Assembly (NCBI RefSeq): GCF_902498185.1
Contig: NZ_CABVIX010000008.1
Location: 1-64,000, forward strand
Source: Pseudomonas fluorescens
GTDB lineage: Bacteria > Pseudomonadota > Gammaproteobacteria > Pseudomonadales > Pseudomonadaceae
DNA length: 64,000 bases
Reading direction: 5' to 3'
Shown in pieces: positions 54,653 through 60,813 of this stretch. The position numbers were made by a program, and so were the translations under genes. The notes under the pieces were generated by a model. The model searched no databases. It was not told the origin of the DNA and worked only from the letters and a program-made list of their open reading frames with translations. Position 1 is the first letter of the stretch, and each line of letters opens with the position of its first letter.

Positions 54653-57433
<2,781 letters not shown>

Positions 57434-57846
57434 GAGAAGCCTGATTCCTTTTTCTGGTGAAACTTCGTCACATCCATAGGGGGGCGAACGAAGCTCGCCG
57501 CCGCAGCGCTTGGCCATGCGACGACTTACGACAAATCAACGAGTTGAGGCATGGATCTGCGCAAAGAAGGCCGCCTGTATGGGCGACCTTGGAAACCGTC
57601 GGATGTTACCACAAAGGCTGGGCGCTTGGGAGGGTGGGGATAGCGGTGAAACGGTGATGTTTTCCCCGGCGCAGCCGTCACCGCGGGCGCGGGCCTTGTG
57701 TCGCGCAAGGGGTGGGCAGGCAGCCCCTGGCATGCAGGTATATGTGCGTGGAGCACAGAGGCAGGGCACAGATTCCGAAACAATACCCCACTGGCCAACC
57801 GGGGCCTGGAGGCTAGCGTTAGCCACTCGTCCACAAGGAGAACGAC
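57434..57846. other. Spacer between gyrA and the RAYT gene
   Basis: This 413-bp stretch must hold the gyrA promoter (minus strand, nearest 57434) and the promoter of the RAYT gene (plus strand). No coding sequence is convincing. A notable element is an imperfect palindrome at 57643-57684. A long GC-rich tract at 57685-57730 also looks like an eroded REP unit. I see no rRNA, tRNA or further ORF. Confidence 0.5.
57643..57684. repeat. Imperfect palindrome upstream of RAYT, REP-like
   Basis: GCGGTG-AA-ACGG (57643-57654) pairs with CCGT-CACCGC (57675-57684) with two bulged A bases, around a 20-base loop. RAYT genes are normally flanked by REP units they recognise, and an imperfect palindrome with a bulge is that form. 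No copy lies on the other side of the gene, because the mtnA gene abuts it. Confidence 0.4.
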
Positions 57847-58302
57847 ATGGAACGTCCAAACTCCCATCTGCTGCGCCGGGGCCGCGTGTCCGAGCCGGGC
57901 AGGATCTATCTGCTCACGACCGTGACCCGAGACCGGATTCCTTTTTTCACGACACTTCCCATGGCAAGGACGGTCATCCAGCAAATGCGCCAGGCCGACC
58001 GGGAAAACGCATGCCGCTCGCTGGCATGGGTCGTCATGCCAGATCACGTCCACTGGATGATCGAACTCCAGGACTCAACGCTCTGCAGCCTGATGCGCCG
58101 GTTCAAATCCCGCAGCAGTTGCGCGCTATACAAGACCGGCAATGTCCAAGGCCGTATCTGGCAACAGGGGTATCAGGACGAGGCTCTGCGACGGGACCAG
58201 AACGCACTGACCGCCGCCCGCCACATCATCGCCACCCCCCTGCGCGCAGGCCTCGCCGAGCACGTTGGCGACTACCCGCACTGGGACTGTGTCTGGCTCT
58301 GA
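57847..58302 (+). CDS. REP-associated tyrosine transposase (RAYT) with altered active site
   Basis: The 151-aa protein is of the Y1/HUH type (TnpA_REP). It has RGRVSEPGRIYLLTTVTRDRIPFF at the start, HVHWMIEL (HUH motif, His67 and His69), QDEALRRDQNALTAARHI, then ATPLRAGLAEHVGDYPHWDCVWL. In the family I know this last part reads ARYIVANPLRAGL, with the catalytic Tyr in the helix; here that position is His126 (codon CAC). The protein probably cannot form the 5'-phosphotyrosine intermediate, though it may still bind REP DNA. AAGGAG lies 6 bp before the ATG. It ends one base before the mtnA-type gene, to which it is convergent. RAYTs are usually immobile host-domesticated genes. Confidence 0.82.
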   Translation: MERPNSHLLRRGRVSEPGRIYLLTTVTRDRIPFFTTLPMARTVIQQMRQADRENACRSLAWVVMPDHVHWMIELQDSTLCSLMRRFKSRSSCALYKTGNVQGRIWQQGYQDEALRRDQNALTAARHIIATPLRAGLAEHVGDYPHWDCVWL

Positions 58303-58303
58303 T

Positions 58304-59380
58304 TCAATGCAAACGCTTGCGACACATGAGCTGGGCCAGCTTGGCGGTATCCGGCCGCTCGACGATGCCCTTCTCGGTGACGATCACGTCGATCAGGTCT
58401 GCCGGGGTCACGTCGAATACCGGGTTGACGGCGTCGACCTCGGCACCAAGACGCTGCCCTGCCAGTTCGAGCGTGTCACTGGCGACTCCTTCCTCGATGA
58501 ACACGTCTTCGCCGCTGGCCAGATTCAGGTCGATGCTGGAGCTGGGCGCGACCACCATGAAGCGTACGCCATGGTGCATCGCGGTAACGGCGAGCTGGTA
58601 GGTGCCGATGCGGTTGACCACGTCGCCATTGGCGGTGATGTGCTCGGCGCCGACGATCACCCATGTTATGCCCTTGGTCTTCATCAGGTGGGCTGCGGCG
58701 GAGTCTGCATTGACGGTGACCGGGATGCCGTCGGCTTCCAGCTCCCAGGCGGTCAGGCGCGAGCCGAGCAGCGCTGGCCGGGTTTCGTCGGCGTAGACAC
58801 GCTCGACCATGCCTTCCAGGTAAGCGGCGCGGATCACCCCCAAAGCGGTGCCAAACCCTCCAGTGGCGAGGGCGCCAGCGTTGCCATGGGTCAGCAGGAT
58901 CTGCTCGCTGCCCTGGTGCCTGCGGATCAGGTCGACGCCGAACTGCGCCATGGTGAGGTTGGCCTCGCGGTCGCTGTCATGGATGGCGATCGCTTCGGCC
59001 TCCATGATGGCCAGCACGCCGTCGCCTTCGCGCACCCGCAACAGCCGGTCGCGCATGCGGTTGAGCGCCCAGGCCAGATTGACGGCGGCAGGCTGGGTTT
59101 GCGCGAGCGCCTCGAAGTCTTCTTCAAGGGCCATCTCCCAGTCGTCATCGACACCCAGGCGTTCGCGCAACCCAAGGACGATGCCGTAGGCGGCGGCAAT
59201 GCCAACGGCCGGAGCACCCTGCACCACCTCTGCACGGATGGCATCGGCGACAGCGGCAGCGGTGGCAAGCGGCAACCAGACGGGTTCGAACGGCAGGCTG
59301 CGCTGGTCGAGCAGATGCAGGACGCCATCACACCACTTGATGGACGTCACCTTCTCTGCCGCCAAAAGTCGCTCGCGCAT
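58304..59380 (-). CDS. mtnA: MtnA-family protein lacking canonical catalytic residues
   Basis: The 358-aa protein has the length, start ([11 protein letters not shown]) and fold of S-methyl-5-thioribose-1-phosphate isomerase, which converts methylthioribose-1-phosphate to the ribulose form in methionine salvage. Family motifs I know are [29 protein letters not shown] and NKIGTYQLA. The corresponding segments here are QGAPAVG (Gln54), QPAAVNL (Gln96), [10 protein letters not shown] (Gly166), GAEHI (Glu246, His247) and NRIGTYQLA. Both catalytic residues (Cys, Asp; Bacillus numbering 160 and 240) and two phosphate-binding arginines (51, 94) are thus changed in an intact frame. It is beside the divergent mtaD, as in P. 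aeruginosa. Read as an impaired or repurposed enzyme; the symbol names the family. Confidence 0.85.
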
Positions 59381-59487: not shown

Positions 59488-60813
59488 ATGCCTACACCCG
59501 CCGCGCCTCTCGACCTGCTGCTCCTGCCCACTTGGCTGGTGCCCGTCGAACCGGCCGGAGCGGTACTGGAGAACCATGCGCTGGGCATACGCGACGGACT
59601 GATCGCCTGGCTCGGCCCACGCGAACAGGCGCCGGAGGCGCTCGAAACCCGCGAACTGCCTGACCAGTTGCTCTGCCCCGGGCTGATCAACGCCCACGGT
59701 CATGCCGCAATGACGCTGTTGCGCGGCATGGCTGACGACCTGCCACTGATGACCTGGCTGGAAGACCATATCTGGCCAGCCGAGGGACGCTGGGTCGACG
59801 AAGCGTTTGTGCGCGATGGCACCGACCTCGCCATCGCCGAGCAGATCAAGGGCGGCATCACCTGCTTTGCCGACATGTACTTTTTCCCGAAGGAAGCCAG
59901 CGAGCGGGTGCACCAGAGTGGTATCCGCGCGCAGATCAGCGCCCCGCTGCTGGACTTCCCGATCCCGGGGGCGCGCAGTACCGAAGAGGCGCTGAACCTT
60001 GCCGTAGAGCTGTTCAACGACCTGCGTCACCATCCGCGCATCACCGTTGCCCTGGGCCCTCACGCCCCCTATACGGTAAGTGACCAGAACCTCGAGAAGA
60101 TCCGCGTCATCGCCGAAGAGCTGGACGCACCGCTGCAGATGCATATCCACGAAACCGCTTTCGAGGTCGAGCAGTCCCTGGCCGAGCGCGGTGAACGTCC
60201 GCTGGCGCGTCTTGCCCGGCTAGGCCTGCTGGGCCCGCGCCTGCAGGCGGTGCACATGACCCAGATCAGCGACGAGGACCTGGCCCTGCTGGTGGAAACC
60301 AATACCAGCGTGGTCCATTGCCCCGAGTCGAACCTCAAGCTGGCGAGCGGTTTCTGCCCCGTCGAGCGGCTGTGGCAGGCGGGTGTGAACGTGGCCATCG
60401 GCACCGACGGCGCGGCCAGCAACAACGATCTCGACCTGCTGGGCGAGACCCGCACCGCCGCGCTGCTGGCCAAGGCCGTCGCAGGCTCGGCCTCGGCGCT
60501 GGATGCACATCGCGCCCTGCGCATGGCCACGCTCAACGGCGCCCGCGCCCTGGGGCTCGAAGCATGCATCGGCTCGCTGGAAACCGGCAAGTCCGCTGAC
60601 CTGGCCGCCTTCGACCTTTCGGGACTGGCCCAGCAACCGGTCTATGACCCGGTTTCGCAACTGATCTATGCCACGGGCCGCGACTGTGTGCGGCACGTCT
60701 GGGTCGCTGGCAGGCAGCTTCTCGACGACCGCCGTCTTACCCGCCTGGACGAACAGGCCCTGACCGCCACCGCCCGCGCATGGGGTGATCGTATCGCCGG
60801 GCGTACCGAATAA
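59488..60813 (+). CDS. mtaD: 5-methylthioadenosine/S-adenosylhomocysteine deaminase-type amidohydrolase
   Basis: The 441-aa TRZ/ATZ-type amidohydrolase has the zinc-binding [10 protein letters not shown] (HxH, about 72), MHIHET (about 215), VHMTQ (about 252) and [13 protein letters not shown] (Asp about 308); all are intact. In P. aeruginosa the gene next to mtnA (PA3170) makes methylthioinosine from methylthioadenosine, the entry step of its methionine salvage route. The ATG at 59488 gives the usual N-terminus. It is divergent from mtnA (107 bp) and upstream of ubiG. Its good active site contrasts with the altered neighbour. Confidence 0.92.

Follow-up and report, generated by a model that had tools for sequence, protein, structure and literature searches.

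The gene at the mtnA position of the window (here, the whole 64,000-nucleotide stretch of DNA that was analysed) is an mtnA orthologue whose product is most likely no longer a methylthioribose-1-phosphate isomerase. With a probability of about 0.68, MtnA would be retained for a second, catalysis-independent function that is common to most or all Pseudomonas. Five observations, each made directly, lead to this reading, namely the active-site substitutions, the losses of pathway genes, the retention of mtnA, the purifying selection acting on it and the dependence of its active site on mtnP. The proposal of a pseudoenzyme, made in the earlier note on this DNA, is supported as probable.

The window (G000:C8) belongs to a 4.85 Mb Pseudomonas draft genome of 80 contigs. 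The gene (positions 58,304–59,380 including the stop codon, minus strand), delimited by its ORF and by alignment, is intact, with the ATG at 59,380, the stop at 58,304 and 358 codons encoding a protein of 358 aa. A second mtnA copy was searched for in the same genome and none is present, the only match being the gene itself. The protein passes the NCBIfam equivalog model for MtnA (TIGR00512; 382.8 bits against a cut-off of 279), and IF-2B was the sole Pfam family found in it. Divergently from mtnA lies mtaD (59,488–60,813, plus strand), which was assigned by its family match (NCBIfam PRK09045, TRZ/ATZ family hydrolase) and has intact metal ligands; we take it to be an MTA deaminase by homology to the P. 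aeruginosa enzyme. Downstream of mtnA, the first large gene to follow in the same orientation is gyrA (54,653–57,517, minus strand), named from its sequence, with the true start probably at about 57,433. Between gyrA and mtnA, a gene for an IS200-like Y1 transposase (Pfam PF01797, 151 aa; 57,847–58,302, plus strand) was found, which we assume may be a REP-associated transposase.

Alignment with the solved MtnA chains of T. maritima (1t9k), P. horikoshii (6a34) and B. subtilis (2yrf), together with reading of the codons on the minus strand, revealed substitutions of Arg54 to Gln (CAG, 59,219–59,221), Arg96 to Gln (CAG, 59,093–59,095), the catalytic Cys166 to Gly (GGC, 58,883–58,885), Gln205 to Leu (CTC, 58,766–58,768), the catalytic Asp246 to Glu (GAG) together with Arg247 to His (CAC; both at 58,640–58,645) and Lys257 to Arg (CGC, 58,610–58,612). 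Every change listed in the earlier note (Q54, Q96, G166, E246, H247 and R257 in an uninterrupted 358-codon gene) is therefore real, and the list lacked two more: Leu205, which replaces the conserved Gln of the RPxLQG motif, and Ala203, which replaces Trp in the alignment with relatives. Positions 166 and 246 match Cys160 and Asp240 of the Bacillus MtnA, presumably the catalytic pair, and the pocket residues Arg, Arg, Gln, Asn and Lys were likewise taken from the Bacillus structure. Neither catalytic residue is present in the window protein, and of these five pocket residues only Asn256 is retained. For a pocket set of eight columns (Arg, Arg, Cys, Gln, Asp, Arg, Asn, Lys), drawn from the earlier note and from the literature, seven columns are changed. 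Near-invariant columns, for which the threshold was conservation in 98% or more of 97 canonical orthologues from mtnP-containing genomes, number 193, and 20 of them differ in the window protein. The changes are concentrated in the active site (7 of 8 columns against 13 of the other 185; Fisher p = 3e-7, with kinship ignored).

To place the gene in the genus, 298 genomes of Pseudomonas species were compared. In a protein search mtnA was matched in 297 of them, including all 288 with a completeness of 90% or more and a contamination of 5% or less, each with one match; the genome without a match, G284, is 86% complete. Outside Pseudomonas, 21 genomes from other families in the order were searched, and 10 gave no mtnA match (two of the ten are less than 90% complete), so that mtnA is dispensable elsewhere. 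MtnP, which makes the MtnA substrate, was matched in 164 of the 298 genomes at an E value of 0.001, 161 of these being above the family cut-off, and mtnB was above its cut-off in 121; weaker mtnB matches were attributed to other aldolases, since control genomes, that of E. coli among them, give them too. The searches for mtnC and for the E. coli-type nucleosidase MtnN covered 80 chosen genomes. In this set mtnC was above the cut-off in 15 genomes (all 14 tested genomes with mtnB, plus G034, in which mtnB is split). MtnN was above the cut-off in none of the 80, ten of which gave weak sub-threshold matches, and a replacement of MtnP by MtnN was rejected on this basis. Loss of methionine salvage, one of the readings offered in the earlier note, is supported for the window genome: mtnP, mtnB, mtnC and MtnN are all without a match, and its MtnD homologue has lost metal ligands (see below). 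The genus-wide pattern also rules out a peculiarity of one genome. Across the genus mtnP, mtnB and mtnC disappear cleanly, whereas mtnA stays open.

The earlier note had also drawn on the conserved synteny with the divergent mtaD. This turned out to be weak evidence, and the synteny was rejected as a sign of pathway function, since 21 genomes without mtnP have lost mtaD too and still retain mtnA. In all 21, in which mtaD was not seen beside mtnA, the best mtaD matches had 26–35% identity, compared with 76–83% for the orthologues in eight other comparison genomes. The only mtaD-less genome whose locus was inspected, G215 (L240:692–2574), has ubiG (named from sequence) directly adjoining mtnA. 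Where mtaD of mtnP-less genomes was in view, its metal-site residues are kept (H in 113 of 113, H in 113 of 113, H in 111 of 112, E in 112 of 112 and H in 110 of 110).

Reading of the MtnA active site covered 233 of the 297 matched genomes, namely all 134 without mtnP and 99 with it; the 64 unread genomes all contain mtnB. With mtnP present, the canonical pocket RRCQDRNK was found in 97 of 99 proteins. The two exceptions are G085, where a run of N interrupts the gene near a contig end (by its look an assembly gap, counted here as non-canonical), and G133, an 88% complete genome with Gly166. All 57 of the mtnB-containing genomes that were read are canonical. Without mtnP, the pocket is canonical in 12 of 134 genomes and altered elsewhere than at the Cys in another 13; the Cys itself is gone from the remaining 109. 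The loss of Cys166 is not peculiar to the window gene. Arg54 or Arg96 is also lost in nine mtnP-less genomes from about six lineages, the window genome among them; one of the nine, G205, keeps the Cys.

The number of independent events was estimated by parsimony on a tree of 228 of the 233 genomes, which was built from gyrA and mtaD pieces of about 2 kb and has modest supports, so that local recombination could inflate the counts. About 23 losses of mtnP were obtained, and for Cys166 either 19 changes (18 of them losses) or 21 losses only, depending on the cost set for regain. The 21 Cys166 events led to Gly in 17 cases, to Gly or Ala in one and to Ser in three, and one of them falls in the mtnP-containing G133. 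At Arg247, 8 of 11 inferred events include Cys.

A parallel pattern was found for the acireductone dioxygenase MtnD (PF03079), which was matched in 293 of the 298 genomes and had no match in five, with scores that tend to be lower where mtnB is absent. Its metal ligands (H, H, E, H) were read in 90 of the 293 genomes and are intact in all 7 genomes with mtnB against 6 of 83 without it, the latter being a non-random sample, as genomes were picked partly for low scores. Changed ligands were thus seen in 77 of the 83 mtnB-less genomes read. The MtnD homologue of the window genome (166 aa; G000:C1:4505–5005, that is L349:4505–5005), directly after an MFS_1_like gene, reads F, L, E and R at these positions and has lost the three metal-binding His residues. 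Its model (mean pLDDT 87.2; best match 1zrr) nevertheless has a predicted acireductone dioxygenase fold. MtnD evolves faster than MtnA, with a median dN/dS of 0.34 in mtnB-less genomes (maximum 0.84, 380 pairs) against 0.09 where mtnB is present (13 pairs). The N-terminal residues K17, L19, H21, D24, L29 and G33 are nearly invariant, and from this conservation the stretch was considered a candidate interaction surface. The whole segment of the first 33 residues (L349:4505–4603; NKVLTH..DI..TLA..G) is nearly invariant despite the loss of the metal site. The mtnD gene is located tens of kilobases or more from mtnA. Where mtnB and mtnC are present they flank mtnD (for example, in G141 and G019), which indicates that both neighbours were lost and mtnD was left behind.

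Selection on mtnA was estimated from pairwise Nei–Gojobori dN/dS values, for non-independent pairs with dS between 0.1 and 1. The median was 0.196 among genes without the Cys (maximum 0.489, 3848 pairs) and 0.124 among canonical genes from mtnP-containing genomes (2338 pairs), and in both sets mtaD gave 0.13–0.14 and gyrA 0.04–0.05. Selection is a little weaker on mtnA without the Cys than on canonical mtnA. For the single pair of the window protein and its nearest relative (G226), dN was 0.146 and dS 0.756. No internal stop was found in any of 233 mtnA frames, and 232 of them run from residue 1 to 358, G085 being the exception. Selection on the fold, as had been proposed, is supported by the dN/dS of about 0.2 and the open frames. 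The AlphaFold2 model of the window protein had a mean pLDDT of 92.2, and its best match in the PDB was the MtnA structure 1t9k (TM scores 0.88 and 0.92). Accordingly, the predicted fold is kept while the catalytic residues are lost, and the gene is under purifying selection, as would be expected of a pseudoenzyme. The rise in relative variability is largest in the pocket block 241–270 and hardly detectable in blocks 61–90, 121–150 and 331–358. Some of the invariant columns (R354, L357 and H358, at the C-terminus) are far from the pocket motifs in the sequence.

The main rival to a second function is a neofunctionalised enzyme, whose pocket would have been re-tuned to another sugar phosphate, often with Cys247 replacing the lost Cys166. 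It owes this rank to the convergent pocket changes and to the retention of both Arg54 and Arg96 in 101 of the 109 proteins without the Cys. Gly166 (105 of 109) and Cys247 (89 of 109) are two of just three new consensus positions in these proteins, and Glu is the outcome of 7 of the 8 events inferred at Asp246, so that the convergent choice of Gly166, Glu246 and Cys247 could mean a re-tuned rather than a dead enzyme. However, Cys247 is missing in several independent lineages, the parallel loss of MtnD ligands would not be explained by a new MtnA substrate, and the window protein, although it has neither Cys, neither pocket Arg, nor Gln205 and Lys257, belongs to a set under purifying selection. 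Taken over the genus, we consider a new enzymatic activity rather unlikely. For the window protein itself it is unlikely because both possible Cys residues, both Arg and the Lys are absent. The new sugar-phosphate substrate suggested in the earlier note is not supported for this protein; it may apply to milder Gly166/Cys247 forms elsewhere. Cys at position 247, adjoining the catalytic Asp, was observed in 92 of the 134 mtnP-less genomes, and it is possible that this residue is a relocated catalytic or ligand-binding one.

The frame could also be kept without any function, either passively, if stop codons in mtnA were polar on gyrA downstream, or because decay is slow. In the window mtnA does adjoin gyrA, and the active site does drift once mtnP is lost. 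Against this, the dN/dS in genes without the Cys is about 0.2 and not 1, and of the 193 columns that canonical proteins conserve, 74 (R354, L357 and H358 among them) are free of substitutions in all 134 mtnP-less genomes. Moreover, mtnB, mtnC and mtnP have vanished cleanly, as has mtaD in 21 genomes, and MtnD is also retained at its separate place in the genome. Absence of function is therefore considered improbable.

It is still less probable, and indeed very doubtful, that the protein remains a methylthioribose-1-phosphate isomerase that works with Gly and Glu and receives its substrate by another route. Its score above the MtnA equivalog cut-off speaks for this, and Glu can stand in for Asp in some enzymes. 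However, of the possible sources of the substrate (MtnP, or MtnN together with a kinase), MtnP and MtnN were searched for in the window genome, and both are without a match there, as are mtnB and mtnC. In addition, according to the titles of PDB entries, the related ribose-1,5-bisphosphate isomerase was crystallised with ligands as the C135S and D204N variants, in which the residues matching the Cys and the Asp are replaced. Finally, a sequencing or assembly error, which a draft of 80 contigs might suggest, was rejected as having a negligible probability, because the frame is open and its seven changes are all clean missense ones, because Gly166 was found in 105 other genomes among the 233 read, and because positions 54, 96, 246 and 257 are changed repeatedly, in other lineages as well.

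A catalysis-independent role of MtnA, which remains the preferred reading, would have arisen before the pathway losses. The supply of substrate would have been lost first, as neither MtnP nor MtnN was found; the catalytic and phosphate-binding residues would then have drifted or been remodelled, and the folded protein would have been retained for a role that most likely consists in the binding of a partner or ligand. MtnD appears to have followed a parallel course less strictly. Two genes of the pathway stay, and in both the catalytic residues rather than the frames are lost, for which the simplest account is a second role for MtnA and probably for MtnD. The role of MtnD is less sure than that of MtnA because of its faster evolution and the lack of a match in 5 of 298 genomes. 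The 12 mtnP-less genomes with a canonical pocket and the Gly166 of the mtnP-containing G133 count against a second function. A bolder version may be put forward tentatively, in which both MtnA and MtnD are two-function proteins and the loss of salvage, about twenty times over, lets only the catalytic half decay. The MtnA pocket would converge on Gly166, Asp or Glu246 and often Cys247, making the protein a bacterial counterpart of eIF2B alpha with a regulatory role, as a sensor of ligands or a binder of partners, perhaps in concert with the pseudo-dioxygenase MtnD.

The resemblance to known systems was assessed next to these readings. By sequence, predicted fold, length and genome place the window protein is an orthologue of MtnA (TIGR00512; 1t9k, 2yvk, 6a34), with 78% identity to the nearest Pseudomonas MtnA and 37–44% to the three solved proteins. 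It differs from them in lacking the catalytic Cys and Asp, both pocket Arg, the Gln and the Lys, and its genome lacks matches to MtnP, MtnB and MtnC. The ribose-1,5-bisphosphate isomerase (TIGR00511; 3a11, 5yfj) belongs to the same superfamily and uses the same kind of Cys/Asp chemistry, but the window protein scores 143.3 bits against a cut-off of 314.1 and lacks the catalytic residues. The alpha, beta and delta subunits of eIF2B share the fold family (Pfam IF-2B, Foldseek hits) and set a precedent, an isomerase fold having become a regulatory subunit. The window protein, however, falls well short of the IF-2B models, at 64.4 bits where 339 are required and 54.9 bits where 249 are required, and bacteria are not known to have eIF2. 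By analogy only, eIF2B alpha may be regarded as the nearest precedent. One report places the binding and sensing of sugar phosphates by eIF2B alpha in its ancestral catalytic pocket (PMC8187479).

Human MRI1/MRDI (4ldq) is similar in being an MtnA orthologue for which a second function, in cell invasion, was proposed; unlike the window protein, it works in a complete pathway. A cancer-related phenotype is mentioned in another paper (PMC6302742). In P. aeruginosa, MtnA was among the proteins lowered by umbelliferone and was treated as a salvage enzyme (PMC9748083), and PA3169 was among the genes lowered in par mutants (PMC3909081); the portions of these two papers that were available propose no second role. 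Likewise, the available portions of the work on P. aeruginosa and on MtnA promiscuity do not mention an MtnA without the Cys or one kept after loss of the pathway. Among the matches listed in a search of open-licence literature, which leaves most subscription papers outside, there was no report of a non-catalytic MtnA function or of the present pattern.

In our sample, 109 species without mtnP carry a protein at the mtnA position that lacks the catalytic Cys. Annotation would probably still name such proteins S-methyl-5-thioribose-1-phosphate isomerase, since the equivalog cut-off is exceeded by the window protein and TIGR00512 is matched by each of the 54 sampled sequences at an E value of 0.001 or better, and this would mislead metabolic models of Pseudomonas. 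The repeated loss of a pathway that spares two of its genes offers a natural experiment in which the chemistry of the enzymes is separated from a hidden second role. In strains without mtnP, no methionine-salvage phenotype can confuse tests of a role of mtnA or mtnD.

Of the 42 genomes read that have mtnP but no mtnB, 40 have a canonical MtnA along with MtnP and no MtnB above the cut-off; in such genomes the intermediate would have to go elsewhere, possibly into an aldolase shunt. The most diverged proteins at the mtnA position, L210, L211 and L212 (from G164, G147 and G001), share 54–55% identity with the window protein. The two that were scored, L210 and L212, are below the MtnA equivalog cut-off (256.8 and 240.2 bits) and above the broader subfamily model. 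All three have LSIGxAG in place of the THxN motif, and their frames are still open.
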